From positions 5,808,001-5,872,000 of the forward strand of contig NZ_CP043311.1 in the NCBI RefSeq assembly GCF_008807375.1: a stretch of DNA of 64,000 nucleotides. Direction: 5' to 3'. Both the position numbers and the translations under genes were made by a program. Of this stretch, positions 9,387-36,815 are shown in pieces (within the stretch, counting starts at the first letter, position 1; each line of letters opens with the position of its first letter). The notes under the pieces are model-generated. The model did not search any database. It saw nothing but the letters and a program-made list of their open reading frames with translations, and was not told where the DNA came from. This DNA is from Pseudomonas lalkuanensis. Its GTDB lineage: Bacteria > Pseudomonadota > Gammaproteobacteria > Pseudomonadales > Pseudomonadaceae.

Positions 9387-9416
9387 GGGCAGAACCTCGT
9401 TTGGCCGCATCGAAAA

Positions 9417-9447
9417 ACAAAAAGCCTCGACTAGCGAGGCTTTTTGA
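9417..9447 (-). terminator. Rho-independent terminator-like hairpin between gcvH and gcvP
   Basis: AAAAAGCCTCG pairs with CGAGGCTTTTT around an ACTAG loop, giving an 11-bp stem with a run of T on the minus-strand transcript. It lies just after the gcvH stop and about 32 bases before the gcvP start, so it would reduce gcvP transcription relative to gcvT and gcvH. Confidence 0.8.
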
Positions 9448-9462
9448 AGGATAGCGGGTGAA

Positions 9463-9852
9463 TCAGCTATCGGCGTCGGCAGCTGCCTTGTAGGCGGCGG
9501 CATCGAGCAGTTTGTCCAGCTCGGCAACGTCGCTCGGCTTGAGCTTGAAGAACCAGGAACCGTACGGATCGCTGTTGACGCTCTCGGGGGCATCGCTGAC
9601 GCCTTCGTTCACGGCAATCACTTCACCGCCGATCGGCGCGTAGATGTCGGAAGCGGCCTTCACCGATTCCACCACGCCGGCTTCCTGACCAGCGGCCAGG
9701 GTCTTGCCGACTTCCGGCAGTTCGACGAAGACCACGTCGCCCAGGGCTTCCTGGGCATGGTCGGTGATGCCCACGGTAACGGTGCCATCGGCTTCCAGAC
9801 GGGCCCACTCGTGGCTGGGGGCGTAACGCAGTTCAGCGGGGATGTTGCTCAT
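9463..9852 (-). CDS. gcvH: Glycine cleavage system H protein (lipoyl carrier)
   Basis: This 129-residue lipoyl carrier shuttles the aminomethyl intermediate between GcvP and GcvT. The lipoylated lysine is Lys65 in the motif VESVKAASD, and the family signature HEWAR...VGITDHAQE is present near residues 14-35. Its length is the family norm. It sits 43 bases downstream of gcvT on the same strand and is followed by a terminator-like hairpin. Confidence 0.97.
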
Positions 9853-9895
9853 GTCGAATTCCTCAGAGACTGTGGCGGATGGCCCGCCTGCAAAT

Positions 9896-10978
9896 TTAGA
9901 TCAAGGCTTTGCCATTGCGCACGAAGTTCGGCCGCACGATGCGTACCGGGAACCACTTGCCGCGGATTTCCACTTCGGCACGCTCGCCGGCGGCCATCGG
10001 CAGCCGCGCCATGGCGATGGATTTGTTCAGGGTCGGGGAGAAACTGCCACTGGTGATCTCGCCCTCGCCCACGCCCTCCACCCGCACCACCTGGTGGGCG
10101 CGCAGCACACCGCGCTCTTCCAGCACCAGGCCGACCAGTTTGCTGGCCACGCCGGCGGCGCGTTCTGCTTCGAGGGCCTGACGGCCGATGAAGTCACGGG
10201 TTTCGGGTTCCCAGGCGACGGTCCAGGCCATGTTGGACACCAACGGAGAAGCCTCTTCGCTCATGTCCTGGCCATAGAGGTTCATGCCGGCCTCCAGGCG
10301 CAGGGTGTCGCGGGCGCCCAGGCCGATGGGGGCGATGCCGGCGCCCACCAGTTCGTTGAAGAAGCCGGCGGCCTGATCGGCGGGGAGCATGATCTCCAGG
10401 CCGTCTTCGCCGGTGTAGCCAGTGCGGGCGACGAACCAGTCGCCGTCAGGCAGGCCCTGGAAGGGTTTCAGTTCGTGGATCAGCGCCGCTCGCTCAGTGC
10501 TCACCAGCTCGGCCACCTTGCTGCGTGCGCTGGGGCCCTGGATGGCCAGCACGGCCAGGTCGGCACGTTCGTCGAGCCGGACCTCGAAGCCCTGGCTGTG
10601 GGCCTGCATCCAGGCCAGGTCCTTGTCGCGGGTGGCGGCATTGACCACCAGGCGATAGCCGGAGCCGGTGAGGTAGACGATCAGGTCGTCGATCACCCCG
10701 CCCTGCTCATTGAGCATGGCGCTGTACAGGGCCTTGCCCGGGGTTTGCAGGCGCTCGACATCGTTGGCCAGCAGATACTGGAGCCAGGCCTTGGCCTGGG
10801 CACCGGACACGTCCACCACGGTCATGTGGGAGACATCGAAGACGCCGCAGTCGCGGCGCACCTGATGGTGTTCCTCGACCTGGGAGCCGTAGTGCAGCGG
10901 CATGTCCCAGCCGCCGAAATCGACCATCTTGGCTCCCAGCGCCAGGTGCTGGTCGTGCAATGGAGTGCGCTGTCCCAT
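9896..10978 (-). CDS. gcvT: Aminomethyltransferase, glycine cleavage T protein
   Basis: The 360-residue T protein releases ammonia and makes 5,10-methylene-tetrahydrofolate from the aminomethyl group on GcvH. The N-terminus ([22 protein letters not shown]) and [12 protein letters not shown] are diagnostic of the GCV_T folate-binding domain, and [11 protein letters not shown] is the conserved central motif. AAGGAGAAACCC directly precedes the ATG. It is the first gene of the operon. No glycine riboswitch is recognisable in the 219 bases upstream; only a weak -10-like TACAAT (complement of 11073-11078) was seen. Confidence 0.97.
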
Positions 10979-11197
10979 GGGTTTCTCCTTCCGGGCTTGG
11001 CGAGGATGCGGCGGGCCTTGGGCGCGGGATCATCCGCTGCCGCAGCAGGGTAGGCCGCAACGAATGGCGCGCATTGTAGCCGCAAGGTCGGGCACTGGAC
11101 ACTCCGGCTGGCAGTCAGCGAAAAGTGTGGTCGCGCATTAGCAAATTGCCATCGCGCCCTGCCCACTCCGGGCTCGCCGCCCCTTCTCCCACCGCGT

Positions 11198-12817
11198 TCA
11201 GTGGCCGATCCGTCGTGCCGAACGGCGTATCAGGCCGATCACCGGCAGCAGGCCGACCAGCACCAGCGTCAGGGCCGGCAATGCGGCGCGGGCCCATTCC
11301 CCTTCACTGGTCATTTCGAAGATGCGCACAGCCAGGGTGTCCCAGCCGAAGGGGCGCATCAGCAGGGTGGCGGGCATTTCCTTGAGGACATCGACGAACA
11401 CCAGCAGCGCGGCGCTCAAGGTGCCGGGCACCAGCAGCGGCAGGTAGACGCGGAAGAACAGCGCCGGGCCACCGACGCCGAGGCTGCGGGAAGCCTCCGG
11501 CAGCGACGGACGGATGCGCGCCAGGCCGTTCTCCAGCGGACCGTAGGCCACCGCCATGAAGCGCACCAGGTAGGCCAGCAGCAGCGCGCCGAGGCTGCCC
11601 AGCAGTAGCGGCTTGCCGGCACCGCCGAGCCAGCTGGACAGCGGGATTACCAGGTGTTTGTCGAGGTAGCTGAACGCGAGCATGAGGGACACCGCCAGCA
11701 CCGAGCCCGGCAGCGCATAGCCGAGGTTGGCCAGGCCGACTGCAGCGCGCACCGGCCGGGCGGGCGCCAGGCGGCGGGAGAAGGCCAGCAGCAGCGCCAC
11801 ACAGACGGTGAGCAGTGCAGCCATGCCGCCGAGGTAGAGGGTGTGCAGGATCAACCCGGCATAGCGCTCGTCGAGGTCGAAGCGGCCGCGCTGCCAGAAC
11901 CACACCAGCAGTTGCAGGATCGGAATGACGAAGGCACAGGCGAATACCAGGGAGCACCAGAAGGTCGCCGCCAGCGCCTTGATCCCGTGCAGGTGGTAGA
12001 GCGCCTTGCCCCGGGGCCGCTCGCTGGCCGGGCGGCTGGCGCCACGGGCGCGGCGCTCGCCATAGAGCACCAGGCAGACGCCGAGCAGCAGCAGGCTGGC
12101 CAGCTGGGCGGCGCTGGAGAGGCTGAAGAAGCCGTACCAGGTCTTGTAGATGGCGGTGGTGAAGGTGTCGAAGTTGAACACCGCCACGGCGCCGAAGTCC
12201 GCCAGGGTCTCCATGACCGCCAGGGCCAGGCCGGCGCCGATGGCCGGTCGCGCCATGGGCAGGGCGACCCGCCAGAACGCCTGCCAGGGTGATTGTCCGA
12301 GAACCCGGGCGGCTTCCATCAGCCCCTTGCCCTGGGCCAGGAACGCGGCGCGGGCCAGCAAGTAGACGTAGGGATAGAAGACCAGCACCAGCACCGTGAT
12401 CACCCCGCCTGTCGAGCGCACCCGCGGCAACCGCAAGCCGCTGCCGAACCACTCGCGGAGCAGGGTCTGCACCGGGCCGGAGAAATCGAACAGGCCGATG
12501 AAGACGAAGGCCAGCACGTAGGCCGGTACGGCAAAGGGCAACATCAACGCCCAGTCCAGCCAGCGCCGGCCGGGGAACTCGCAGAGGCTGGTGAGCCAGG
12601 CCAGGCTGACGCCGATCACGGTCACGCCCACCGACACGCCAGTGACCAGCACCAGGGTGTTGCCCAGCAGGCGCGGCATCTGGGTGTCCCAGAGATGGGA
12701 CCAGATTTCCCCGTCCACTTCGCCCCAGGACAGCAGCAGGACGCTCAGGGGCAGCAGAACCAGGAAGGCGACGGCAAAGCTGATGGGATACCAGCGGCGC
12801 TGGGCGGGATGGGCCAC
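11198..12817 (-). CDS. Fused two-domain ferric-iron ABC transporter permease (FbpB/HitB type)
   Basis: The 539-residue inner-membrane protein has about twelve hydrophobic segments and two internal BPD-transport domains. Each carries an EAA loop: EAARVLGQSPWQAFWRVALP in the first half and EASRSLGVGGPALFFRVYLP in the second. This is the FbpB/SfuB/HitB arrangement for Fe(III) uptake. It lies 73 bases downstream of the iron-binding protein gene on the same strand. No ATP-binding subunit is adjacent, so the ATPase must be encoded elsewhere or shared. Confidence 0.9.
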   Translation of the reverse strand: MAHPAQRRWYPISFAVAFLVLLPLSVLLLSWGEVDGEIWSHLWDTQMPRLLGNTLVLVTGVSVGVTVIGVSLAWLTSLCEFPGRRWLDWALMLPFAVPAYVLAFVFIGLFDFSGPVQTLLREWFGSGLRLPRVRSTGGVITVLVLVFYPYVYLLARAAFLAQGKGLMEAARVLGQSPWQAFWRVALPMARPAIGAGLALAVMETLADFGAVAVFNFDTFTTAIYKTWYGFFSLSSAAQLASLLLLGVCLVLYGERRARGASRPASERPRGKALYHLHGIKALAATFWCSLVFACAFVIPILQLLVWFWQRGRFDLDERYAGLILHTLYLGGMAALLTVCVALLLAFSRRLAPARPVRAAVGLANLGYALPGSVLAVSLMLAFSYLDKHLVIPLSSWLGGAGKPLLLGSLGALLLAYLVRFMAVAYGPLENGLARIRPSLPEASRSLGVGGPALFFRVYLPLLVPGTLSAALLVFVDVLKEMPATLLMRPFGWDTLAVRIFEMTSEGEWARAALPALTLVLVGLLPVIGLIRRSARRIGH

Positions 12818-24470: not shown

Positions 24471-24497
24471 AAAAGCCCCGCTCTGGCGGGGCTTTTT
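24471..24497. terminator. Bidirectional intrinsic terminator
   Basis: AAAAGCCCCGC-TCTG-GCGGGGCTTTTT forms a GC-rich stem flanked by A and T runs. It serves the plus-strand quinone oxidoreductase and the end of the convergent minus-strand malonate block. Confidence 0.9.
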
Positions 24498-24562: not shown

Positions 24563-26086
24563 TCAGTTGTACAGCGACTTGAACCGCTCGCGCAGCACGT
24601 TCTTCTGCACCTTGCCCATTACATTGCGTGGTAGCGCGTCGACCACCATCACCCGCTTGGGCTGCTTGAAGCGCGCCAGCTTGCCGTCCAGGGCGGCGAG
24701 GATTTCCGCCTCGCTCGGCGCGTGATCCCTGGTGGCCACCAGCACGGCGGTGACGCCTTCGCCGAAGTCCGGGTGCGGCACGCCGATCACCGCCGATTCG
24801 GCCACGCCCGGCAGGGTATCGAGGATCTGCTCCAGCTCCTTCGGGTACACGTTGTAGCCGCCGCTGATGATCATGTCCTTGCTGCGGCCGACGATCTGCA
24901 CGTAGCCCTTGTCGTCGATGAAGCCGATGTCGCCGGTCATGAAATAGCCGTCGGCGCGCAACTCCTCGGCGGTCTTCTCCGGCATGCGCCAGTAACCCTG
25001 GAACACGTTCGGCCCGCGTACCTCGATCATCCCCGGCTCGCCCTGCGGCAGCACAGTGGGCTCAGACTGGCCGGGATCGGTGATGCGCAACTCGACGCCC
25101 GGCAACGGGAAGCCGACGGTGCCGGCGATACGCTCGCCCTCCAGCGGGTTGGAGGTGTTCATGCCGGTCTCGGTCATGCCGTAGCGCTCGAGGATCGCCA
25201 TGCCGGTGCGCTCGGAGAAGGCGCGGTGGGTCTCGGCGGTAAGCGGCGCGGAGCCGGAGATGAACAGGCGCATGTGCGCCACCGCCTCGCGGGTCAGGCC
25301 GCTCTGGTCGAGCAGGCGGGTATAGAAGGTCGGCACGCCCATCAGCAGATTCACCTGCGGCAGCAGGCGGAGGATTTCAGCGGCGTCGAACTTGGCGAGG
25401 AACAGCATCGATCCGCCCGCCATCAGCAGGCTGTTGATGGCCACGAACAGGCCGTGGATGTGGAAGATCGGCAGCGCGTGGAGCAGCCAGTCGGAGGGGC
25501 TGATCTGCCAGGACTGCACCAGCGCGAGGGCATTGGAGACCAGGTTGCCGTGGCTGATCATCGCGCCCTTGGAGCGCCCGGTGGTACCGGAGGTGTAGAG
25601 GATCGCGGCGAGGTCGGTCGAGGCACGCGGCACGTCGACGAAGCGGCCCGGCTTGCCATGCACCGCATCCATCAGCGACCCGTCGCCGGCGTCACCCAGG
25701 GTCGCCACGCGGGCTACGCCGCTGGCTTGGGCCAACTCGCGGGCTTGCGCGTCGAAGGCCGGCGCACAGACGAACAGCGATGGCTCGGCATCGTCGAGGA
25801 AGTAGCGCAGCTCTTCGCCCGTATAACCGCTGTTGAGTGGCAGGTACACCGCGCCGACGCGCAGCACGGCGAGGTAGAGCATCACCGTCTCGGGGCTTTT
25901 GTCGACCTGCACGGCAACGCGGTCGCCCGGCTGCACGCCGAGCTCAACCAGCGCGTGGGCGAACTGCGAGGTGCTGCGCAGCATGTCGGCATAGCTGTAG
26001 CCGCCGCCCTCGGGCGTGCGGATGAAGGGTTTGGAAAGGTCGCTGGGCAGGTGTTTGCCGACTTCGGCGAAAAGGCTCTGGTTCAT
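24563..26086 (-). CDS. matB: Malonyl-CoA synthetase (MatB-type acyl-CoA ligase)
   Basis: The 507-residue adenylate-forming enzyme activates malonate with ATP and CoA. The P-loop-like motif LYTSGTTGRSKGAM is near residue 165, the YGMTETGMNTSNPLEGER motif matches MatB proteins, and the C-terminal lid carries GRSKDMIISGGYNVYPKE and the catalytic lysine in LPRNVMGKVQKN. It is last in a minus-strand set, 9 bases after the malonyl-CoA decarboxylase gene. This pairing supports malonate as substrate over other short dicarboxylates. Confidence 0.9.
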   Translation of the reverse strand: MNQSLFAEVGKHLPSDLSKPFIRTPEGGGYSYADMLRSTSQFAHALVELGVQPGDRVAVQVDKSPETVMLYLAVLRVGAVYLPLNSGYTGEELRYFLDDAEPSLFVCAPAFDAQARELAQASGVARVATLGDAGDGSLMDAVHGKPGRFVDVPRASTDLAAILYTSGTTGRSKGAMISHGNLVSNALALVQSWQISPSDWLLHALPIFHIHGLFVAINSLLMAGGSMLFLAKFDAAEILRLLPQVNLLMGVPTFYTRLLDQSGLTREAVAHMRLFISGSAPLTAETHRAFSERTGMAILERYGMTETGMNTSNPLEGERIAGTVGFPLPGVELRITDPGQSEPTVLPQGEPGMIEVRGPNVFQGYWRMPEKTAEELRADGYFMTGDIGFIDDKGYVQIVGRSKDMIISGGYNVYPKELEQILDTLPGVAESAVIGVPHPDFGEGVTAVLVATRDHAPSEAEILAALDGKLARFKQPKRVMVVDALPRNVMGKVQKNVLRERFKSLYN

Positions 26087-26095
26087 GGGGAGGTC

Positions 26096-27415
26096 CTAGC
26101 GTTTTGTTTTCGCTGACAGGGTCGCGAGCTTGCGCACCTCCGGGGAGGCCGCAACCGCGCCCTGGTTGGCGTAGGCTTCGTGGTTCTTTTCGATCTGGCG
26201 CAGTTCGTAGCGGTAATTGACCATCAGCCCGGCGGCCTGGCGCAGGCCGCTGACGGAGAGGTCGCCGCGCCAGTTCAGGCGTTCCAGGCGGGCGCCGTTG
26301 CCCAGGTGGAAGCGCGCCACTGGGTCCAGCGGCAAACCGGCACCGTTCTTGGCGTGCAGGAAGTATTCGGCGGCCAGCGCCAGCAGCGGCTGCTCGGTGC
26401 GCGGCGGTGGCGGTGCGTCGGGCTTGAGGGCCTTGAGCAGCTCGGCCGCCGCCGCGCCCAGTTGCGGGTCATCACCCAGGCCGTCGAGCCAGCGACGCAA
26501 GCCGGGTACCGGCGACAGAGTGACGTAATGGCGCAGGCCGGGAATTTCCCGCGCCAGTTCTTCCACCACCTGCTTGATCAGGAAGTTGCCGAAGGAAATG
26601 CCGCGCAGGCCGTCCTGGCAGTTGCTGATGGAGTAGAACACCGCGGTGTCCGGTTCTTCCGCAGGTTGCGCCCCGGAGCCAGGCTCGAGAATGTCTGCAA
26701 TCGCGCCGGGCATGGCGCGGGTAAGCGCCACCTCGACGAAGATCAGCGGCTCGTCAGCCAGCGCCGGGTGGAAAAAGGCGAAGCAGCGACGATCCGCCGG
26801 CTGCAGGCGACCGCGCAGGTCGTCCCAGTCCTTGATGGCGTGGACGGCTTCATACTTGATGATCTTTTCTAGGATCGACGCCGGAGTCGACCAGTCGATG
26901 CGCCGCAACACCAGGAAACCGCGGTTGAACCAGGACGCCAGCAAATGCTGCAGGTCGTGGTCCACCGCCGTCAGTTCAGGCCTGGCCTTCAGCTCCTGCA
27001 GCAACAGACGGCGCATGGCGATCAGCTCGGCGGTGCCGCCGGGCGCCTGGTTCAAGCGGCGGAACAGCTCCTGGCGCGGCGGCTCGCTGGCCTGGAACAG
27101 CGCCGTGGTATTGGCCGACGACGGGTCGTCGAGGTAACGCTGGCAGGCTTCGGCCAGCGCATCGTGAGGCGGCGCGAAGTCCTTGAGCAGGATGTCGAAG
27201 AAGGCCTTCTGCTGAGCCTCCGGGCAGTCGCGGTAGGCACACAGCACCTGCCGCGCCAACGCTACGCCCGAGGCTTCACCATGGCTGGAAATCAGCTTGT
27301 GGCAAGCCTGCGCCAGCGCCTGGGCATTGCCCGGTGCCGGCTCGCGCGACTCCAGCAATTGCCGGCCCCGCTCGGTGATGCTTTGCAGAAGACCCTGGAA
27401 GAAGCTGGTGTTCAT
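26096..27415 (-). CDS. matA: Malonyl-CoA decarboxylase
   Basis: The 439-residue protein decarboxylates malonyl-CoA to acetyl-CoA. It has the helical N-domain and a GNAT-like catalytic C-domain. The motif YSISNCQDGLRGISFGNF (near residue 260) is diagnostic for the family, the catalytic His-Tyr region FHLGNGARLERLNW is present, and VNYRYEL lies near the C-terminus. With the adjacent MatB it completes malonate to acetyl-CoA. It starts 23 bases downstream of the amidase stop. Confidence 0.93.
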   Translation of the reverse strand: MNTSFFQGLLQSITERGRQLLESREPAPGNAQALAQACHKLISSHGEASGVALARQVLCAYRDCPEAQQKAFFDILLKDFAPPHDALAEACQRYLDDPSSANTTALFQASEPPRQELFRRLNQAPGGTAELIAMRRLLLQELKARPELTAVDHDLQHLLASWFNRGFLVLRRIDWSTPASILEKIIKYEAVHAIKDWDDLRGRLQPADRRCFAFFHPALADEPLIFVEVALTRAMPGAIADILEPGSGAQPAEEPDTAVFYSISNCQDGLRGISFGNFLIKQVVEELAREIPGLRHYVTLSPVPGLRRWLDGLGDDPQLGAAAAELLKALKPDAPPPPRTEQPLLALAAEYFLHAKNGAGLPLDPVARFHLGNGARLERLNWRGDLSVSGLRQAAGLMVNYRYELRQIEKNHEAYANQGAVAASPEVRKLATLSAKTKR

Positions 27416-27438
27416 GCGTCACCCCTTCTGGCGAATGT

Positions 27439-28899
27439 TCAGTCCCGAGCGAGCAGCGGCGGCGGGCAGCGCGGGTACCAGTGCGAAGCCTGCTCATAGG
27501 CGTGGGCCAGCTGCAGCACGGCCATGTCGGCCTGGTGCTTGCCGATGATCTGGATGCCCATGGGCAGCCCCTGTTCATTGAAGCCCACCGGAACGTTGGC
27601 CACCGGGCAACCGGACAGGGTGGCCGGGATGACCACTTCCATCCAGCGGTGGTAGGTGTCCATCGACTTTCCAGCGATCTCTTTCGGCCAATCCCAGGTC
27701 TTGTCGAACGGGAACACCTGGGCGCTGGGCAGCAGCAGGTAGTCGTAGCGTTCGAACAGTGTGTTGATGGCGCGGTACCAGTCGCTGCGCGCGGCGGAGG
27801 CGCGGAACACGTCCATGGCCGAGAGTTTCAGGCCGTTCTCCACTTCCCAGATGGCCTCGGGCTTGAGCAGCTCGCACTTGGCCGGGTCGGCGTAGGCGGC
27901 GCCCAGGGAGCCGGCGACCATCCAGTGGCGCAGGGTGCGCCAGGTATCCCACAGGCGCTCAGCGGAAAAGCCCAGCGCGGTGTCCTCGACGCGGCAGCCA
28001 ATGGCCTGGAAATCGGCGAAGGATTTGCGGCACAGCTCCAGCACGCCGCGCTCCATCGGCAGGTGGCCGCCCAGGTCGCCCAGCCAGCCCAGACGCGCGC
28101 CCTTGAAGTCGCGCGCAAGATTGCCGGCGAACTGTTCGCCGCTTTCGGCGATGGACAGCGGCGCGCGGGCGTCGCCACCGGCCTGCACTGAAAGCAACAG
28201 CGCCACGTCGCGCACGCTGCGGCCCATTGGGCCTTCGTAGCCGAGCTGGTCGATGAACAGGTCGGCGCTGTCGTCGAAGGGCACGCGCCCCTGGGACGGA
28301 CGGAAGCCGACGATGTTGTTGTACGCCGCCGGGTTGCGCAGCGAGCCCATCATGTCGCTGCCGTCGGCCACCGGGACCATCTGCAGCGCCAGCGCCGCAG
28401 CCGCGCCGCCACTGCTACCGCCGGCGGTGCGCTCCGGTGCGTAGGCGCAGCCGGTGGCGCCGAAGATCGGGTTGTAGCTGTGCGAACCCAGGCCGAATTC
28501 CGGGGTGTTGGTCTTGCCGATCAGCACGGCGCCGGCTGCCTTGATGCGCTCGACCATGATGCCGTCGCGCTCGGGCACGTAGTCGCGGAACAGCGGCGAG
28601 CCGAGGGTGGTGCGAATGCCCTTCGTCAGAGACAGGTCCTTGATGGCGTGCGGCAGGCCGTGCATCCAGCCGCGATACTCGCCGCGCGCCAGTTCGGCGT
28701 CTCGCTGGTCGGCCTCGGCCAGCAGCTGCTCTTCAGGCTGCAGGCTGATGATGGCGTTGACCTTCGGGTTGTAGCGCTCGATCTGCGCCAGGTGGGCCTG
28801 CATGACTTCTCGGCAGGAGATCTGGCGCAGGCGGATGAGTTCGGCCAGTTCATGGGCCTGGAGCTGGACGAGTTCGTTGTTGTGCTTGTACTGGCTCAT
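27439..28899 (-). CDS. Amidase-signature hydrolase linked to malonate metabolism
   Basis: The 486-residue amidase-signature enzyme has a visible Ser-cisSer-Lys triad: Lys87 in HAIKDL, Ser162 in GGSSGG and Ser186 in SDMMGSLRNPA. The 24-residue gap between the two serines matches malonamidase E2 and FAAH. The usual GGS before the nucleophile reads MGS here. The start at 28899 (MSQYKHNNEL) follows GAAGG. It sits between a polyamine-type binding protein and malonyl-CoA decarboxylase, so a plausible role is cleavage of a malonyl amide (malonamate- or ureidomalonate-like) to malonate. This is inference; the family covers many amides. Confidence 0.82.
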   Translation of the reverse strand: MSQYKHNNELVQLQAHELAELIRLRQISCREVMQAHLAQIERYNPKVNAIISLQPEEQLLAEADQRDAELARGEYRGWMHGLPHAIKDLSLTKGIRTTLGSPLFRDYVPERDGIMVERIKAAGAVLIGKTNTPEFGLGSHSYNPIFGATGCAYAPERTAGGSSGGAAAALALQMVPVADGSDMMGSLRNPAAYNNIVGFRPSQGRVPFDDSADLFIDQLGYEGPMGRSVRDVALLLSVQAGGDARAPLSIAESGEQFAGNLARDFKGARLGWLGDLGGHLPMERGVLELCRKSFADFQAIGCRVEDTALGFSAERLWDTWRTLRHWMVAGSLGAAYADPAKCELLKPEAIWEVENGLKLSAMDVFRASAARSDWYRAINTLFERYDYLLLPSAQVFPFDKTWDWPKEIAGKSMDTYHRWMEVVIPATLSGCPVANVPVGFNEQGLPMGIQIIGKHQADMAVLQLAHAYEQASHWYPRCPPPLLARD

Positions 28900-28958
28900 G
28901 GAGCGCGGCCTTCTTTCATCGGGGCTTGCGCTTTGCGGCAAGCCTGAGTCGGGTTCAG

Positions 28959-28981
28959 CGACCCCGCCCGCAGGCGGGGCT
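28959..28981. terminator. GC hairpin between binding-protein and amidase genes
   Basis: CCCCGCC-CGCA-GGCGGGG (28962-28979) forms a 7-bp GC stem in the 164-base gap that separates the importer genes from the catabolic genes. On the minus strand no T-run follows, so it may attenuate or stabilise the message instead of fully terminating it. Confidence 0.45.
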
Positions 28982-29063
28982 TGTTGCGTTCTTCAGGCCG
29001 AGCGATGCCGCTGCGCCGAGACGGCGCAGGCGCGCATCGCCATGCCGTGTTCCCTCGAGGGAA

Positions 29064-30101
29064 TCAGCGCATCAGGTTGGTCCAGATACGGTCGGCCAGG
29101 CGGATCGCGCCTTCGCCGCAGGTCTTGCTGAACACCACCTTGGTGCCCTCGGGGATGTGCAGTTCCGGCGCATCCTTGAGGCTGGCATCGAGGAAGGGTT
29201 CCACGCCCCTGATCGGGCTCTGGTGCTTGAGGAAGTTCTGGGTCATCGCCGCGTTTTCCGGCTGGCTGAGGAAGGCGATGAACTTCTTCGCGTTCTCCGG
29301 GTTCTTCGCACCGGCGGGGATCACCAGGTTGTCCACCCAGGCCATCACGCCCTCTTTCGGGTAGAGGTACTTCAGGCTGGATTTCATCTCACGCGCACGC
29401 ATCGACGAGCCGCCCCAGAACATCGACATGTCGACTTCGCCCGAGGCCAGGTTCTCGCGGATCGAACCAGCCTTGGAGCTGTAGGTCTTCACGAAGCCCT
29501 TCTGGTTCTTCAGCAGGGTCAGCACCTGTTGCATCTGCTTGGGATCCTCGCTGCACAGCGGGATGCCAAGGTACAGGCTGGCGGTGTCGATCACCTCGCT
29601 GGAGGAGTCGAACATGTTGATCCTGCCCTGCAGCTCCTTGGGCGGAGTGAACAGCACCGAGTAGCTGTCGGCCGGGCCGCTGTACCTGGCGCTGTCGAGC
29701 ACGACGCTGGTGGTGCCCCAGATGAAGGGCACGGCATAGGCGCCTTCCGGGTCCCAGGTGGGTTTCTTCAGGTTGTCTTCGATGTTCGCGTAGTACGGCT
29801 GGTTGACCGGATCGAAGCGCTCCAGCAGCTTCTCCTGGATCAGGATCGGCACGAACTGGTGGGAGGGGATGGCCACGTCGTAACCAGTGCCGCCCTGCTT
29901 GAGCTTGGCCAGCAGCGTTTCGTTGGAATCGTAGGAATCCACGGTCACCTTGATGCCGGTTTCCTTCTCGAACTTCTCCAGGATCGGCGGCGAGAAGTAG
30001 CCGCTCCAGCTCACCACGTTGAGTTGTTCGGCGGCGTGCGCGTTGGTGACGGCCAGGCCCAACGTCAGCGTGGCCCCTACAGCAGCGATCAGTTTGCTCA
30101 T
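29064..30101 (-). CDS. Periplasmic binding protein of a spermidine/putrescine-type ABC importer
   Basis: The 345-residue PotD/PotF-family protein has a signal peptide (residues 1-23, ending AHA). The mature start EQLNVVSWSGYFSPPILEKFEKETGIKV is characteristic of the family, and later segments (YDVAIPSHQFVP, PFIWGTTSVV, MFWGGSSMRA) line the ligand cleft. The acidic residues that bind polyamines in PotD are not clearly retained by eye, so the ligand may be different. It is cotranscribed with its permeases and an amidase. CGGAG lies about 8 bases before the ATG. Confidence 0.88.
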   Translation of the reverse strand: MSKLIAAVGATLTLGLAVTNAHAAEQLNVVSWSGYFSPPILEKFEKETGIKVTVDSYDSNETLLAKLKQGGTGYDVAIPSHQFVPILIQEKLLERFDPVNQPYYANIEDNLKKPTWDPEGAYAVPFIWGTTSVVLDSARYSGPADSYSVLFTPPKELQGRINMFDSSSEVIDTASLYLGIPLCSEDPKQMQQVLTLLKNQKGFVKTYSSKAGSIRENLASGEVDMSMFWGGSSMRAREMKSSLKYLYPKEGVMAWVDNLVIPAGAKNPENAKKFIAFLSQPENAAMTQNFLKHQSPIRGVEPFLDASLKDAPELHIPEGTKVVFSKTCGEGAIRLADRIWTNLMR

Positions 30102-30159
30102 CTTCTACTCCGGTATGTGGGCGGAGAGTCCGTTCAAGGTCTGATCGAGCGCAGCCCAG

Positions 30160-30225
30160 ACTAGGCGGAAGCAGTTGAGAAAGCGCAGTTTACGACTGTA
30201 AATGAGCATTTCGAGACGGCATCCA
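30160..30225. repeat. Intergenic repeat with TTTAC-N4-GTAAA palindrome (copy 2)
   Basis: GCGCAGTTTACGACTGTAAA continues to TGAGCA at 30183-30208, matching the copy at 14043-14068 in 24 of 26 positions. The flanking GGCGGAAG and a trailing CAACG also resemble copy 1 but are more diverged. It lies about 80-105 bases upstream of the binding-protein start. Confidence 0.6.
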
Positions 30226-30265
30226 ACGACGTATGGGCAAGCTCGGACAGGCATGGGACGGGCTC

Positions 30266-31075
30266 TCAGGCTTTCTTCTTGCCAAGCAGGTACGACAGGG
30301 TTACGAACAGCACGGAAACGCCGAGGATCAGGGTCGAGACTGCGTTCACATCGGGTGTCACACCCATGCGCAGCAGGCCGAAGATGAAGATCGGCAAGGT
30401 GGTGGTGCCGGCCTGGGAGACCATCATCGAGATCACGAAGTTATCCAGCGAGACGATGAAGGCCAGCATCAGCCCGGAGACGATCCCCGGCGTCAGCAGC
30501 GGCAGGGTGACCTTGCGGAAGGTCCGCCAGGGGCCGGCGTAGAGGTCGGCGGCGGCCTGCTCCAGGGACAGGTCCATATCGTTCAGCCGTGCGCGGATCG
30601 GCAGGTAGGCGAACGGGATGCAGAACACCGTATGGGCGATGATCAGGTTGCCGTAGCCCAGCGACAGGCCGAGGGTGGAGAACAGCGCCAGGGTGGCGAC
30701 GCCGACCACGATCTCGGGCAGTACCAGCGGCAGCATGATCGCCCCCATGGACAGGCGCATGCCTTTGAACCTGGCCCCGCGCGAGGTGCCCAGCGCGGCC
30801 AGGGTGGCGATCGCCGTGGCGACCACGCTGGCGCACACGGCGATCAGCAGGCTGTTGCCGGCGGCCTGGCGCAGCGCCTGGTTGGCGAACGCGGCGCGGT
30901 ACCAGTCGAGGCTGAAGCCGGTCCACACGGTGGCGGACTGGTTGGCGTTGAACGAGAGCACCACCAGCACCACGATGGGCGCGTAGAGGTACAGGTAGAA
31001 CAGGAAACTCAGCGCGCCGAAACCACGGAAATCCTGTACGCCCAGACGGCGTTTGCTCAGCAGCGACAGCATCAT
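30266..31075 (-). CDS. ABC importer permease, PotC-like
   Basis: The 269-residue inner-membrane permease has about six helices and an EAA loop (EQAAADLYAGPWRTFRKVTLP) typical of the second permease of polyamine-type importers. Its start overlaps the PotB-like gene stop by 4 bases, so the subunits are translationally coupled. Confidence 0.9.
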   Translation of the reverse strand: MMLSLLSKRRLGVQDFRGFGALSFLFYLYLYAPIVVLVVLSFNANQSATVWTGFSLDWYRAAFANQALRQAAGNSLLIAVCASVVATAIATLAALGTSRGARFKGMRLSMGAIMLPLVLPEIVVGVATLALFSTLGLSLGYGNLIIAHTVFCIPFAYLPIRARLNDMDLSLEQAAADLYAGPWRTFRKVTLPLLTPGIVSGLMLAFIVSLDNFVISMMVSQAGTTTLPIFIFGLLRMGVTPDVNAVSTLILGVSVLFVTLSYLLGKKKA

Positions 31076-31998
31076 TCACCTCCCCGGGCGATGCGCAGGC
31101 GCTCGGCGCGCATCGCGTAGAACATCAGTACCAGCATCACCGCGGCCATCAGCACCAGCGACAGCGCCGCGCCGAAGGGCCAGTTCCGCGCATCGCTGAA
31201 CTGCCGGAAGATCAGGTTGCCGAGCATCATCTTGGTGCCGCCGCCGAGCAGCTCGGGAGCGATCATCGCGCCGAGGCAAGGCACGAAGGTGAGGATGGCG
31301 CCGGCGAGAATCCCCGGCCGGGCGATGGGCAGCACCACCTTGCGCAGGGTGCGGATGCGCCCGGCGTAGAGGTCCTGGGCGGCTTCGAGCAGGCGCATGT
31401 CCATCTTCTCCAGGGTTGCGTAGATCGGCAGGACCACAAAGGGCGCGTAGGTGTAGACCAGGCCCAGCAGCACGGCGCCGTCTGTGTACAGCAGGTTCAA
31501 CGGCTGGTGGATCACGCCCAGGCTCATCAGCGTGCCGTTGACGACGCCGGTGCCGCGCAGCAGCAGGATCCAGGCGTAGGTGCGGATCAGCAGGTTGGCC
31601 CAGAACGGCACGGTGATCAGGAAGATCAGCAGGCCGCGACGATGCGCCGGCTGCATCGCCAGCCACACAGCCACCGGGAAGCCCACCGCCAGGGTGATCG
31701 CCGTGGTCGCGGCGGCGATGCCGATGGAACGCAACGCGATCGTCAGGTAGGAGTCGGCGAAAGCCAGGCTGTCGTCCAGTTGGCGCTCGAACAGCAGTGA
31801 GACGTAGGCCTCGGTGCTGAAGTGCTGGTTCACGCCGCCGTAGGGGTTGGCCTGCATCAGCGAATAGCCGACCACGATGAAGATCGGCACGATCAGGAAC
31901 AGCCCGATGGAGAGCAGCGCGGGCGACACGCCGAGGAAGCTGTGCAGCGCCTTGCGCCGCTCCAGCGAATTGCCGGCGGTTGTGGATAACTGGTTCAT
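31072..31998 (-). CDS. ABC importer permease, PotB-like
   Basis: The 308-residue permease has about six to seven helices and an EAA loop (EAAQDLYAGRIRTLRKVVLP). It forms the channel with the PotC-like partner. The ATG at 31998 is taken as start because GGGGGTGAG precedes it; a GTG at 32004 is in frame. It starts 12 bases after the ATPase stop. Confidence 0.9.
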   Translation of the reverse strand: MNQLSTTAGNSLERRKALHSFLGVSPALLSIGLFLIVPIFIVVGYSLMQANPYGGVNQHFSTEAYVSLLFERQLDDSLAFADSYLTIALRSIGIAAATTAITLAVGFPVAVWLAMQPAHRRGLLIFLITVPFWANLLIRTYAWILLLRGTGVVNGTLMSLGVIHQPLNLLYTDGAVLLGLVYTYAPFVVLPIYATLEKMDMRLLEAAQDLYAGRIRTLRKVVLPIARPGILAGAILTFVPCLGAMIAPELLGGGTKMMLGNLIFRQFSDARNWPFGAALSLVLMAAVMLVLMFYAMRAERLRIARGGE

Positions 31999-32010
31999 GC
32001 TCACCCCCGC

Positions 32011-33129
32011 TCAGTCCACCAGGACGCTGGCGCTGCCCTTCTCGAACAGCAGCCCGGCGCGCTGCCCGGCCACCAGGCGCTGACGCTGGCCGGCACTGTT
32101 GGGCGCACGGACAGTCAGCTTGCCGCCGTCACGCAGCGCCACCTGATATTGCAGGTCGGTGCCGAGGTAGATCTGCGCGACGATGCTGCATGGCACGGCG
32201 GACGGCGTGTCCTCGGCCACCAGTTGCAGGCGCTCGGGGCGGATCGACAAGGTGACCTCAGCACCGACCTCCAGGCCCTCGCGGATGCCGGCCTCGATCA
32301 GCTGGTCGCCGGCGATGCGGTAGTGCGCGCGCTCATCAATGAAGTGCTCGACGCGGGCGGGAAGGAAGTTGGTCTCACCGATGAAGTCGGCTACGAAGCG
32401 GTTACGCGGACGCTCGTAGATTTCGTCCGGACGGCCGACCTGCTGCACCTCGCCCTCGGAGAGCACGGCGATGCGGTCGGACATGGTGAGCGCTTCTTCC
32501 TGGTCGTGGGTGACGAAGATGAAGGTGATGCCGGTCTTGGCCTGGATCGCCTTCAGCTCCTCACGCATGGCCTGGCGCAGCTTGAGGTCGAGCGCGGAGA
32601 GCGGCTCGTCCAGCAGCAGCACCTTGGGATGCGGCGCCAGGGCGCGGGCCAGGGCGACGCGCTGTTGCTGGCCGCCGGAGAGCTGCGTCGGCTTGCGCTG
32701 GGCGAAGCGCTCCATCTGCACCAGGGCGAGCATTTCACGCACGCGCTCAGCGACCTCCGCCCTGCCCATGCGCTTGCCCATCGGGTGGGATTCCAGGCCG
32801 AAGGCCAGGTTTTCGGCAATGCTCATGTGCGGGAACAGCGCATAGTGCTGGAACACCGTATTAACCGGGCGCTCGAAGGGCGGTCGGTCGGCGATGTTCT
32901 CGCCGTACAGGCGGATTTCCCCGCTGGTGGGGAACTCGAAGCCGGCGATCATGCGCAGGAGGGTGGTCTTGCCACAGCCGGAGGGGCCGAGCAGGGTGAA
33001 GAATTCGTTGTCGCGGATGTCCAGGTCGACGCATTTCAGCGCCACGGGACCACTGGCCGGATCGCCGTAAACCTTGCGCACGGAGCGGATCGAAACCGCT
33101 GCCGTCTGCAGGCTGTGCAGGGCACTCAT
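32011..33129 (-). CDS. ABC importer ATP-binding protein, PotA-like
   Basis: The 372-residue ATPase has Walker A GPSGCGKTT near residue 49, signature LSGGQQQRVALARAL, Walker B LLLDEPLSALD and the H-loop VTHDQEEA. A C-terminal TOBE domain (about residues 285-370) is typical of PotA/FbpC-type importers. It is the first gene of the seven-gene minus-strand block and diverges from a LysR gene, the arrangement of a regulated catabolic operon. Confidence 0.92.
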   Translation of the reverse strand: MSALHSLQTAAVSIRSVRKVYGDPASGPVALKCVDLDIRDNEFFTLLGPSGCGKTTLLRMIAGFEFPTSGEIRLYGENIADRPPFERPVNTVFQHYALFPHMSIAENLAFGLESHPMGKRMGRAEVAERVREMLALVQMERFAQRKPTQLSGGQQQRVALARALAPHPKVLLLDEPLSALDLKLRQAMREELKAIQAKTGITFIFVTHDQEEALTMSDRIAVLSEGEVQQVGRPDEIYERPRNRFVADFIGETNFLPARVEHFIDERAHYRIAGDQLIEAGIREGLEVGAEVTLSIRPERLQLVAEDTPSAVPCSIVAQIYLGTDLQYQVALRDGGKLTVRAPNSAGQRQRLVAGQRAGLLFEKGSASVLVD

Positions 33130-33275
33130 GTGAAACCTCCGGTTCCTTCCCCGCGGGTGGGCGGGGGGTCTTGTAGTTGTTCTGGCAGGACTAGAGAAAC
33201 GCCGGATGCAGCGCTGGCCGTGTTATCGGCTCCTATTGTCGTGGTGCTGCTGAGGCGGATATTCGGAGAAAGGTG

Positions 33276-33294
33276 ATTGAGCGAAAAGCTCAAT
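33276..33294. promoter_or_regulatory. Palindromic candidate LysR operator (ATTGAGC-N5-GCTCAAT)
   Basis: A perfect 7-7 inverted repeat with a GAAAA spacer lies 53-71 bases before the LysR start, inside the divergent intergenic region. It fits the T-N11-A layout of LysR-type binding sites. TTGAGC within it plus TACATT (33300-33305), 17 bases later, could be the regulator's own promoter, implying autoregulation. Confidence 0.6.
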
Positions 33295-33346
33295 TTTCTT
33301 ACATTCGATATTAAAAAAACTAACAGCACTCACCGAGGCCCAGGCC

Positions 33347-34255
33347 ATGTCCATCCAGCGCCTTCCACCGCTCAATGCCGTCCGCGCTTTCGAGGCCGCC
33401 GCCCGGCTGGGCAGTTATGTCGCAGCCTCCAAGGCCCTGCACGTGACCCAGCCAGCCATCGGCCGCCACGTGAAGCTGCTGGAGGACTGGCTGGGCGTGC
33501 AGTTGTTCGAGCGCACGCCGCGCGGGGTGAGCCTGACGCCAGCCGGGCAGCGCTACTACGCGAAGATATCCACGGCCTTGCAGCAAATCGCCGACGCCGG
33601 CTTTGAGCTGGCTCCTGGCGGCACTGCACGCTGGCTGAAGATCATGGTGGTGCCCGCCTTCGCCAAGCGCTGGCTGATGCCGCGCCTGGAATCCCTGCGC
33701 CAGCAGCGACCGGGGATGAAGGTGGCGGTGGAACCCAACCCGACTTTCACTGAAGTGGACGGCAAGACCGCCGACCTGGGCATCGTCTACGGTCTGCCGG
33801 GTATCTACTCACAGTGCCACAGCACGCTGATCCGTCCGACGGTGTTCCCGGTATGCTCGCCGTCCTACCTGGCCGAACACGGCACGCTGAGCAGTGTGGA
33901 AGAGCTCGCACGGCACAAGCTGATCCACGTGGACGATGGAGAATGGTGGAACCTCTGGCTGTCCACTGTCGGCCTTTCGCTGCGGGTGAGTTCGGACGTG
34001 CTCTACGTCAGCAATGACCACGCGCTGTCGATGGCCGAGTCCGGCCACGGTATCGCCCTGGCCAATGCGGTGCTGGTGAAGCACCAATTGGCCGCCGGCA
34101 CCCTGGTGCGCCCGCTGGCGGAAGAGGTCCAGTTGGAGAGCTACCAGCTGCTGCTGCCCCCGGGGCCGGTGAGCGCCGATGTGGAGTGGTTCGAAGGCTG
34201 GATCCGCGCGGCGCTGCAGGAGGAGTTCGCAGCGCCAACGCATTCAGCCGGCTAA
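33347..34255 (+). CDS. LysR-family transcriptional regulator (GcvA-like)
   Basis: The 302-residue regulator has the GcvA-subgroup N-terminus RLPPLNAVRAFEAAARLGSY and a winged helix-turn-helix (AASKALHVTQPAIGRHVKLLE), then a periplasmic-binding-like effector domain from about residue 93. It is divergent from the importer-amidase-malonate block with 217 bases between, the standard position of a local activator. The effector is unknown; malonate or the imported amide is a reasonable guess. Confidence 0.9.
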   Translation: MSIQRLPPLNAVRAFEAAARLGSYVAASKALHVTQPAIGRHVKLLEDWLGVQLFERTPRGVSLTPAGQRYYAKISTALQQIADAGFELAPGGTARWLKIMVVPAFAKRWLMPRLESLRQQRPGMKVAVEPNPTFTEVDGKTADLGIVYGLPGIYSQCHSTLIRPTVFPVCSPSYLAEHGTLSSVEELARHKLIHVDDGEWWNLWLSTVGLSLRVSSDVLYVSNDHALSMAESGHGIALANAVLVKHQLAAGTLVRPLAEEVQLESYQLLLPPGPVSADVEWFEGWIRAALQEEFAAPTHSAG

Positions 34256-34290: not shown

Positions 34291-35259
34291 TCAGCCACGC
34301 GGGGCGTAGGCGAATACGTCGGCGCGCATCTGGTGGGCATCCATCCCGGCCGCAACCAGCGCATCCAGGGTGGCGTACACCATCGCCGGTGAGCCGCTGG
34401 CGTAGACGTGCAACTGCTTGAGGTCCGGGAAGTCTTCACACACCGCTTCATGCAGCAGGCCACGACGGCCCCGCCAATCACAGGGGTCGCTGACGACCTT
34501 GTGCAGGAGCAGGTTTTCCAGGCCCTGCCAGTCTTTCCAATGGAGCAGCTCGTAGAAGTCGTCCGGCTGGCGCACGCCCCAATACAAGTGCACCGGATGT
34601 TTGAAGCCGGTGGCGCGGCAGTGTTCGATCAGGCTGTGCATCTGTCCCATGCCGGTACCGGCGGCGATCAACACCAGCGGACCGTCCGGCAACTCCGCCA
34701 GGTGGGTATCGCCGAAGGGCATCTTCACCCTGGCGATGCCGGTGCGCTGGAGTTGCGCGAGCAGTGCCCTGGCGCTGTTTTCACGGCCGAGGATGTGCAG
34801 TTCGATTTCGCGCCCGGCACTCGGCGCCGAGGCAATGGAGAAGGCCGAAGACTCGCCATCGTCGCGCTCGATCAGCAGGTACTGCCCGGCGTGATAGCGC
34901 GGCGGCTTGCCGGCTGGCGCGCGCAGGCGCACGCGCCAGACATCGCCGCCCACTTCCACGCATTCGCTGACCTGGCAGCTCATGTCGCGCACCGGCAGCT
35001 CGCCCGGGGCCAGCACGCCGTCCCAGTGCAGCACGCAGTCTTCCAGGGGCTCGGCCAGGCAGGTGAACAGCTCACCCTGGCTCAGCTCGGCGCCGTTCTG
35101 GCGTACCCGCCCCTCCACCAGCAGGGCCGCGCAAACATGGCAGTTCCCGTTGCGGCAGCTTTGCGGGCACTCGTAGCCGAGCCGGCGCGCCGCATCCAGG
35201 ATGCGCTCGTTGGGAGCCGTCTGGATGACCGCGCCGGAAGGTTGCAGGGTGACACGCAT
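34291..35259 (-). CDS. 2Fe-2S ferredoxin-NAD(P)H reductase fusion (CDP-6-deoxy-glucoseen reductase-like)
   Basis: The 322-residue protein combines an N-terminal plant-type ferredoxin domain (Cys31, Cys35, Cys40 and Cys43 in ECPQSCRNGNCHVC, Cys67) with an FAD domain (SSAFSIASAP) and an NAD(P) domain (LIAAGTGMGQM). It should pass electrons from NAD(P)H through FAD to the iron-sulfur centre. Its ATG shares one base with the ubiD stop codon, so the two are coupled, and a role in supplying electrons or flavin near ubiquinone synthesis is possible. The CDP-sugar name is inherited from the family and not supported by context. Confidence 0.85.
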   Translation of the reverse strand: MRVTLQPSGAVIQTAPNERILDAARRLGYECPQSCRNGNCHVCAALLVEGRVRQNGAELSQGELFTCLAEPLEDCVLHWDGVLAPGELPVRDMSCQVSECVEVGGDVWRVRLRAPAGKPPRYHAGQYLLIERDDGESSAFSIASAPSAGREIELHILGRENSARALLAQLQRTGIARVKMPFGDTHLAELPDGPLVLIAAGTGMGQMHSLIEHCRATGFKHPVHLYWGVRQPDDFYELLHWKDWQGLENLLLHKVVSDPCDWRGRRGLLHEAVCEDFPDLKQLHVYASGSPAMVYATLDALVAAGMDAHQMRADVFAYAPRG

Positions 35260-36725
35260 CAATCGATTCCCAGAGAAGACCAGAGCTCATCGACGCGGCG
35301 CTTGACCGCTTCGTCCTGGACGATCACCCGGCCCCATTCGCGGTTGGTCTCGCCCGGCCACTTGTGGGTGGCGTCCAGGCCCATCTTCGAACCGAGGCCG
35401 GAGATGGGCGAAGCGAAGTCCAGGTAGTCGATCGGCGTGTTGTCGATCATCACCGTGTCACGCTTTGGGTCCATGCGCGTGGTAATGGCCCAGATCACAT
35501 CGTTCCAGTCCCGCGCATTGACGTCGTCGTCGGTGACTATGACGAACTTGGTGTACATGAACTGTCGCAGGAACGACCAGACACCCAGCATTACGCGCTT
35601 GGCGTGGCCCGGGTACTGCTTCTTCATGGTCACCACCGCCATCCGGTAGGAGCAGCCCTCCGGCGGCAGGTAGAAGTCGACGATCTCGGGGAACTGCTTC
35701 TGCAGTATGGGCACGAAGACTTCGTTCAGCGCCACGCCGAGGATGGCCGGCTCATCCGGCGGCCGGCCGGTATAGGTGCTGTGGTAGATCGGCTTTTGCC
35801 GGCGGGTGATGCGCTCCACGGTGAACACCGGGAAGCTGTCCACCTCGTTGTAGTAGCCGGTGTGGTCGCCGTAAGGGCCTTCATCGGCCATTTCGCCAGG
35901 GTGGATCACCCCTTCGAGGACGATTTCGGCACTGGCTGGCACCTGCAGGTCGCTGCCGATGCACTTCACCAGTTCGGTGCGGTTGTCCCGCAGCAGGCCG
36001 GCGAAGGCGTACTCGGACAGGGTGTCCGGTACCGGGGTCACGGCGCCGAGGATGGTCGCCGGATCGGCCCCCAGGGCCACCGCCACGGGGAAAGGCTCGC
36101 CCGGGTGCTTCGCGCACCACTCGCGGTAGTCCAGCGCGCCGCCCCGATGGCTCAGCCAACGCATGATGACCTTGTTGCGGCCGATCACCTGCTGGCGATA
36201 GATGCCGAGGTTCTGCCGCTCCTTGTTCGGGCCACGGGTGACGGTCAGGCCCCAGGTGATCAGCGGGGCGACATCGCCCGGCCAGCAGGTCTGCACCGGC
36301 AGCCTGGTGAGGTCGACGTCGTCGCCCTCCTCCACCACTTCCTGGCAGGGGCCATCCTTGAGCACCTTGGGCGCCATGGCGATGACCTTCTTGAAGATGG
36401 GCAGCTTGGACCAGGCGTCCTTCAGGCCCTTGGGCGGCTCGGGCTCCTTGAGGAAGGCCAGCAGCTTGCCGATCTCGCGCAGCTCGCCGACATCCTCGGC
36501 GCCCATTCCCAGGGCCACGCGCCCGGGGGTGCCGAAGAGGTTGCCGAGCACCGGGATATCGAAGCCGGTGGGCTTTTCGAAAAGCAGCGCCGGTCCCTGC
36601 TTGCGCAAGGTGCGGTCGCAGATTTCGGTCATTTCCAGCACAGGCGAAACCGGAGTGGCGATGCGCTTGAGCTCGCCACGCTGTTCCAGGCCACTGATGA
36701 ATTCGCGCAGATCGCGATACTGCAT
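35259..36725 (-). CDS. ubiD: 4-hydroxy-3-polyprenylbenzoate decarboxylase
   Basis: The 488-residue prenylated-FMN enzyme decarboxylates the ubiquinone precursor. It has [22 protein letters not shown] at the N-terminus, the conserved [24 protein letters not shown] central motif, and [17 protein letters not shown] near the cofactor site. The ATG at 36725 matches the family start and length; the longer frame upstream is not supported. A terminator lies between rho and this gene. UbiX, which makes the cofactor, is not in the window. Confidence 0.95.
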
Positions 36726-36815
36726 GCTTGAGCCTCTCAGGGCGTGCAGGTCGGGGCGCAAAGTTTAGCGCCGAACTGGGTTATTCAGAAGAACAAAGGG
36801 CCAGTGCAGAAACGC

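Follow-up and report, generated by a model that had tools for sequence, protein, structure and literature searches.

A putative uptake and hydrolysis pathway for malonyl amides in Pseudomonas lalkuanensis

Gene content of the locus

The window is a 64,000-nucleotide stretch of Pseudomonas lalkuanensis DNA (contig NZ_CP043311.1, positions 5,808,001 to 5,872,000) from a Pseudomonas genome of 6.06 Mb assembled as a single contig. Between positions 24563 and 34255 it carries seven minus-strand genes, which an earlier note made from the sequence alone had described as a polyamine-type importer, an amidase and two enzymes of malonate catabolism, opposite a divergent LysR gene. Profile matches from Pfam and NCBIfam bear out this description: all eight genes are present on the strands given, and each has a Pfam match above the curated cut-off. 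The locus is considered here as a candidate pathway for malonyl amides.

24563..26086, minus strand: malonyl-CoA synthetase (MatB); NF005702 at 802.7 bits (cut-off 558) and Pfam AMP-binding
26096..27415, minus strand: malonyl-CoA decarboxylase (MCD, MatA); PF05292 at 329.5 bits (cut-off 23.2) and PF17408 at 90.7 bits, above its cut-off
27439..28899, minus strand: amidase-signature hydrolase of the PRK07486 type; PF01425 at 285.8 bits and NF005686 at 809.6 bits (cut-off 465)
29064..30101, minus strand: periplasmic solute-binding protein of the PotD/PotF kind; PF13416 at 108.3 bits
30266..31075, minus strand: PotC-like ABC permease; PF00528 at 37.7 bits (cut-off 26.4), PotC model at 228.7 bits, below its cut-off of 326
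31072..32004, minus strand: PotB-like ABC permease with a GTG start; PF00528 at 40.9 bits (cut-off 26.4), PotB model at 218.8 bits, below its cut-off of 348
32011..33129, minus strand: PotA-like ABC ATPase; PF00005, PF08402 and the polyamine ABC ATPase model TIGR01187 at 368.2 bits (cut-off 355.6)
33347..34255, plus strand: divergent LysR-type regulator, GcvA-like; PF00126 and PF03466, GcvA model at 239.9 bits, below its cut-off of 288

Gaps of 23 bp and 9 bp separate the amidase from the MCD gene and the MCD gene from MatB. The window MCD is the only PF05292 match in the genome. The importer has the PotABCD layout within one operon, with a PotA-type ATPase, two permeases and a PotD/F-type binding protein, and among its proteins the ATPase alone passes a polyamine subfamily cut-off.

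The importer–amidase core and its malonate genes

Gene orders in related loci identify the LysR gene facing the PotABC, binding protein and amidase genes as the conserved core, to which the MCD–MatB pair is an attachment. In the first fifteen relative loci the PotABC–binding protein–amidase set is present in 15, the LysR gene in 14 (not in Ventosimonas), and MCD and MatB follow the amidase in four. A scan of named genomes by alignment of the binding protein gave 523 relatives; the best 80 include 14 loci with MCD and MatB and two with genes for the unrelated malonate decarboxylase Mdc, and the binding protein is found together with an amidase in 79, only L176 showing none. Across 298 genomes of the family, with amidase orthologues counted at E 1e-215 or better so as to exclude paralogues of 61–66% identity, an orthologue was found in 45, MCD in 26 and mdcA in 158 above cut-off (166 at E 0.001). 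Wherever orthologue and MCD occur together (24 genomes), MCD lies directly beside the amidase on the same strand; the complete gene order was read in 14 of these, namely the window and 13 others. The conserved co-occurrence of all seven genes, which the earlier note had proposed as a check, gives a mixed result: MCD is present in 24 of the 45 orthologue genomes and absent from 21, so that a broadly conserved seven-gene set is ruled out. Two further MCD genomes (G228 and G292) have no amidase orthologue at the same threshold, and a class-wide amidase search gave matches in 2 of 369 genomes, the window genome included, too few to be informative.

Orthologue genomes almost always possess one malonate decarboxylation route or the other. 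Of the 21 without MCD, 20 have mdcA, Ventosimonas (G019) being the exception, compared with three of the 24 that have MCD, and the two systems are therefore near-exclusive. Some malonate route is present in 44 of the 45 orthologue genomes and in 136 of the 253 others (one-sided Fisher p 5e-10, uncorrected for kinship). Because the core is coupled both to MCD–MatB and to the non-homologous mdc genes, malonate is the likely product of the amidase; this coupling supports the proposal of the earlier note that the enzyme yields malonate.

In two species the mdc operon itself adjoins the core. In Pseudomonas sp. 6D_7.1_Bac1 (G285) and P. aeruginosa PA7 (G151), mdcA and further mdc genes lie behind the core's LysR gene on the same strand; genes A, B, D, E and H and the carrier gene MadM were identified in both, and MadL in PA7, by a search that did not extend to mdcC and mdcG. 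Random placement would bring mdcA within 10 kb in at least two of the 23 genomes that have both genes with a probability of ∼0.0025. A tree of five Mdc proteins, built over 22 loci, joins the operon of PA7 to the operons of G162, G186 and G190 (label 100); that of 6D_7.1 clusters with the operons of six genomes in its own genus, g14 (label 87, and 67 inside). In all these grouping genomes mdc is distant from the core or lies on a separate contig. In an amidase tree of 87 distinct rows, where the nearest rows to the window are those of P. pseudonitroreducens and its kin, the two mdc-linked rows stand apart and two changes are needed. Since the linked operons do not group with each other in the Mdc tree and the linked amidase rows are separate, two independent joinings of mdc to the core would be the simplest history, and transfer of a single linked block appears unlikely.

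The arrangement also extends beyond Pseudomonas. A metagenome-assembled genome (MAG) of Rhodobacteraceae (locus L175) encodes PotABC, binding protein, amidase, MCD and MatB in the same order as the window, with identities of 56% for the binding protein, 34% for the amidase, 49% for MCD and 58% for MatB, which is cut by the contig end; it also has a match to an IclR-type regulator model. The amidase tree places this MAG on a very long branch, and its gene set may be a further independent assembly. Two Paraburkholderia loci (L170 and L173) and one from Rudaea (L171) combine the importer with an amidase of 34–40% identity. At 11205-14054 of L170, from Paraburkholderia domus, an aminotransferase gene (PRK06105 model) follows the amidase by 24 bp, a possible hint to the released amine, and the divergent upstream open reading frame (ORF) is IclR-like by eye; no aminotransferase follows the amidase in its relative L173. 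No amine pathway was found among the scanned flanking genes of the Pseudomonas loci.

Two further sequence signals flank the minus-strand genes.

33307..33327, minus strand: predicted LysR operator, a palindrome near GCTGTTA-N7-TAACAGC in the LysR–PotA intergenic region
24471..24492, minus strand: terminator-like hairpin after MatB, GCCCCGC-CAGA-GCGGGGC-TTTT, a sequence reading only

In all 93 intergenic regions, some species being counted twice, the palindrome scores 11–14 of 14 positions (12 in the window), compared with 7–10 in one letter shuffle of each. A pattern derived from it has one exact match in the window genome, at 33307..33327, and two matches with three mismatches; a reversed-pattern control gave one. 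It is probably the operator of the divergent LysR protein. Extension of this regulon to mdc is not supported, because the palindrome is absent before mdcA: scores upstream of mdcA are at shuffle level (7–9 of 14) in all 22 loci, both linked ones included. The hairpin after MatB remains a reading by eye of the sequence, since a pattern scan, which lists it on the plus strand only, found terminator-like sites no commoner than in shuffles (3 against a mean of 4.9); the same scan found no promoter-like sites.

A UbiD gene and a ferredoxin-type reductase gene, at 34294-36761 beyond the LysR gene, are common to the 13 Pseudomonas MCD loci among the best 80 and to three loci without MCD (L106, L149 and L167), and are probably old neighbours that lie outside the unit. 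G292, from another genus, has a 40% identical MCD (L093, 8944-10386) whose cluster is unrelated and includes genes for an aldehyde dehydrogenase and a hydroxybutyryl-CoA dehydrogenase and a match to an AraC-like regulator model. The core is present (L174) in P. fluorescens FW300-N2E3, a strain for which public transposon-fitness data presumably exist.

Amidase, binding protein and substrate class

The amidase ORF (27439-28941) opens at a TTG at 28941, with an alternative ATG at 28899. The ATG is probably the start, because the resulting protein of ∼486 residues matches most close homologues in length. A GC-rich inverted repeat, GCCCCGCC..GGGCGGGG, lies at 28960-28985 in the 164 bp between the binding-protein stop and this ATG; it has no T run and is perhaps an RNA-processing stem.

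Both its PF01425 match and its Lys-cisSer-Ser positions place the enzyme in the amidase-signature family. Lys86, Ser161 and Ser185 (numbered on the first row of the alignment), which from the motif we take to be the catalytic triad, are invariant in 21 aligned sequences. The motif SDMMGSLRNPA is found in 113 of 118 readable loci, 23 further loci giving no reading, and the five without it are the distant loci L050, L170, L171, L173 and L175. In Foldseek, a structure model with a mean predicted local distance difference test (pLDDT) score of 71.5 retrieves only the amidase-signature fold; the model has low confidence around residues 130–162 and 178–191, the site of both serines. Among solved structures, a PDB search places an aryl acylamidase closest (E 1.2e-59). 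Malonamidase E2, which the earlier note named as a precedent, does belong to the same family, but it is only a distant relative: it aligns in a single stretch of 170 residues (query 78–247, E 9e-19), and 39 distinct PDB sequences outrank its best row.

Other members of this amidase family occur in different surroundings. The window genome has a second one, 62% identical (L047, C1:4793513-4794934), with DUF1302, DUF1329 and Macro-domain genes nearby, and paralogues at 61–66% identity are found in several other genomes searched of the genus. At locus L050 of G007 (8015-11730), a 44% identical amidase lies between an IclR gene and an MFS symporter whose best model, TIGR00883, scores below cut-off, so that the same kind of amidase is found with a different importer.

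The PDB relatives of the binding protein are polyamine-binding proteins, and its scores fall far under the polyamine equivalog cut-offs (PotD 171.7 against 582). Its structure model (mean pLDDT 61.9) is too poor for reading the pocket, and the PotD pocket was mapped on to it through the PDB match and an alignment of relatives. We take the amine-binding acids of PotD to be Glu36, Glu171 and Asp257, and this set is incomplete here. The equivalent of Glu36, position 34, is Gly in 75 of 75 Pseudomonas binding proteins and in four other amidase-linked proteins (L170, L171, L173 and L175). The PotD 171 position is acidic in all 75 (Glu in 34, Asp in 41), as is the 257 position (Asp in 74, Glu in one). 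Because the Glu36 equivalent is lost, a polyamine is an improbable ligand; the description as a polyamine-type importer is right for the family and probably not for the ligand. The loss of one amine site with retention of another would suit a carboxamide such as malonamate, or a conjugate bearing one amine, better than a polyamine.

A special case of a malonyl amide substrate would be an N-acyl polyamine or diamine with malonyl as the acyl group, making the locus a variant of the importer–deacylase units for acetylpolyamines. The PotD/PotF kind of importer suits this idea, as does the conservation, across all 75 Pseudomonas proteins, of Trp229 and Trp255 and of acids at positions 257 and 169. 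In the Kiloniellales locus L176 (2504-4703), an importer relative with a 51% identical binding protein is followed by an ORF that by eye is like an HDAC-type deacylase, and this looks like an importer-plus-deacylase pair using other chemistry. Six plasmid relatives of the importer were examined, out of 20 plasmid matches; their labelled neighbours include agmatine, amine-oxidase and carnitine genes, with no amidase-signature gene by label, and two of the six sit with agmatine or amine-oxidase genes. L176 and all six plasmid relatives, however, keep an acid at the Glu36 position (Asp in L176), where the amidase-linked proteins have Gly, and malonylputrescine, malonylspermidine and malonylagmatine appear in none of the literature matches listed. 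We regard an N-acyl polyamine as an unlikely substrate.

Far less probable still is an importer of free malonate, or of another dicarboxylate, that stands in for a missing carrier, with the amidase in a side role. A missing carrier is indeed suggested by the searches: MadM, positive in 23 of the 45 orthologue genomes overall, was found in none of the 21 with MCD and without mdcA, and MatC_N in none of 22 genomes searched, Ventosimonas included, although the control for MatC_N was silent too. The window genome has no match to MadM or, more weakly in view of the silent control, to MatC_N, other carrier families not having been searched. PA7 and 6D_7.1_Bac1, however, retain MadM-type genes within the neighbouring mdc operon, so in these species the importer is no carrier replacement. 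The two acidic pocket positions are also ill-suited to a dianion, and the near-constant presence of the amidase beside the binding protein speaks against a side role.

The most likely substrate class would thus be malonamate, or a small amine or amino acid carrying an N-malonyl group, rather than a free polyamine. Malonylation of 1-aminocyclopropane-1-carboxylate (ACC) and D-amino acids takes place in plants (PMC7432710), and in Fusarium 2-aminophenol becomes N-(2-hydroxyphenyl)malonamic acid (PMC4542470). The sequence singles out no one of the known malonyl amides.

Interpretation and comparison with known systems

We propose that the operon encodes an inducible pathway for uptake and hydrolysis of a small malonyl amide, the malonate then being decarboxylated, and we put the probability of this whole reading at about two in three. 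From its family, the PotABC importer with its binding protein would bring the malonyl amide into the cell. The amidase, given its repeated genomic coupling to malonate decarboxylation, would cut the amide bond to give malonate and ammonia or an amine. By family function, MatB would then activate malonate to malonyl-CoA in the window clade and MCD would decarboxylate this to acetyl-CoA, while in relatives this role in malonate breakdown would fall to the Mdc complex. The divergent LysR protein would control this one locus through the palindrome.

A number of observations weigh against this proposal. In 63 of the best 80 core loci there is no MCD or mdc gene inside the fetched flanks. The L170 and L173 genomes, whose amidases are 34–35% identical, have no MCD, the search for mdc there covering only the flanks that were fetched. 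In Ventosimonas (G019) the core lacks its LysR gene, and the genome has no mdcA, MCD or MadM. Shared ancestry inflates the co-occurrence counts. The linkage of core and mdc may be old and may have been lost many times; under either history, mdc and the core were neighbours in distant lineages. The absence of the palindrome before mdcA and the distance of the window amidase from malonamidase E2 belong on the same side.

Some of these observations would be expected if two unrelated pathways merely share the locus, the importer and amidase serving to obtain amide nitrogen and MCD–MatB lying downstream, in one clade, for turnover of malonate or malonyl-CoA. The 63 loci without linked malonate genes, the 21 of 45 genomes without MCD and the lack of the palindrome before mdcA all favour such an arrangement. 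Two facts make it unlikely in our view: mdc stands by the core's LysR gene in two distant species, which chance placement would rarely produce, and the same seven-gene order in the alphaproteobacterial MAG is hard to explain in this way.

If the operon does encode a malonyl amide pathway, two non-homologous malonate routes, MCD–MatB and Mdc, stand behind one conserved uptake-and-hydrolysis front end. A testable function is thereby offered for a gene set, present in 45 of 298 genomes of the family and in PA7 among them, that is otherwise labelled as a polyamine importer and an amidase, and malonyl amides are pointed to as an overlooked source of carbon or nitrogen. A more speculative extension, which we consider improbable as it stands, is that plant and soil pseudomonads have a dedicated pathway for harvesting N-malonyl conjugates, as which plants store surplus ACC and D-amino acids and Fusarium gets rid of the aminophenol derived from benzoxazolinone. 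The conjugates would be taken up, and the malonate set free from them would be catabolized by whichever malonate system the cell possesses. If this were true and the released amine were ACC, the bacterium would reopen a pool of the plant ethylene precursor that is regarded as inactivated.

We regard the locus as a new combination of known parts, a variant of malonate catabolism whose function we infer from families and gene neighbourhoods. No functional study of this combination is among the literature matches listed, most subscription journals lying outside the search, but two papers list the core's genes. In P. aeruginosa PAO1, genes PA0202–PA0207 presumably lie beside mdcA (PA0208). PA0202 is given as an amidase, PA0203 as a binding protein and PA0204 as a permease in one table (PMC5605626), and a review table places PA0203 and PA0205 under polyamine transport (PMC9397018); the PA0208 promoter drives malonate decarboxylase (PMC9765613). 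The amidase, binding protein and permease among PA0202–PA0205 are of the core kind, and those tables describe them by family names only.

The rhizobial MatA–MatB(–MatC) system shares the MCD and malonyl-CoA synthetase families with the window, where the two genes are adjacent and co-directional; of 238 plasmid MCD matches, the 40 listed come from rhizobia and their kin, at 54–56% identity, and one outside that list has 60–80%. MatABC has a GntR-type regulator, MatR. The window differs in having the importer and amidase upstream and a LysR regulator, and its genome has no MatC_N match (control silent). In Pseudomonas, malonate is decarboxylated by Mdc (mdcABCDEGHLM), which is biotin-independent and distinct from MCD (PMC5534430). 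The mdc genes adjoin the same importer–amidase–LysR core in two species, whereas the window genome has no match to mdcA (TIGR01110).

Malonamidase E2 of Bradyrhizobium, with its catalytic Lys-Ser-Ser, shares the amidase-signature family with the window enzyme, but it is distant in sequence and the aryl acylamidase is closer. Units that pair an acetylpolyamine amidohydrolase with a polyamine-type importer exist as a kind, and they resemble the proposed pathway in that an acylated compound is imported through a PotD/PotF-like binding protein and then deacylated in the cell. Those units use a Zn-dependent HDAC-like deacylase and release acetate, whereas the window has an amidase-signature enzyme with malonate as its likely product; the L176 protein, moreover, keeps an acid at the PotD 36 position where the window protein has Gly.

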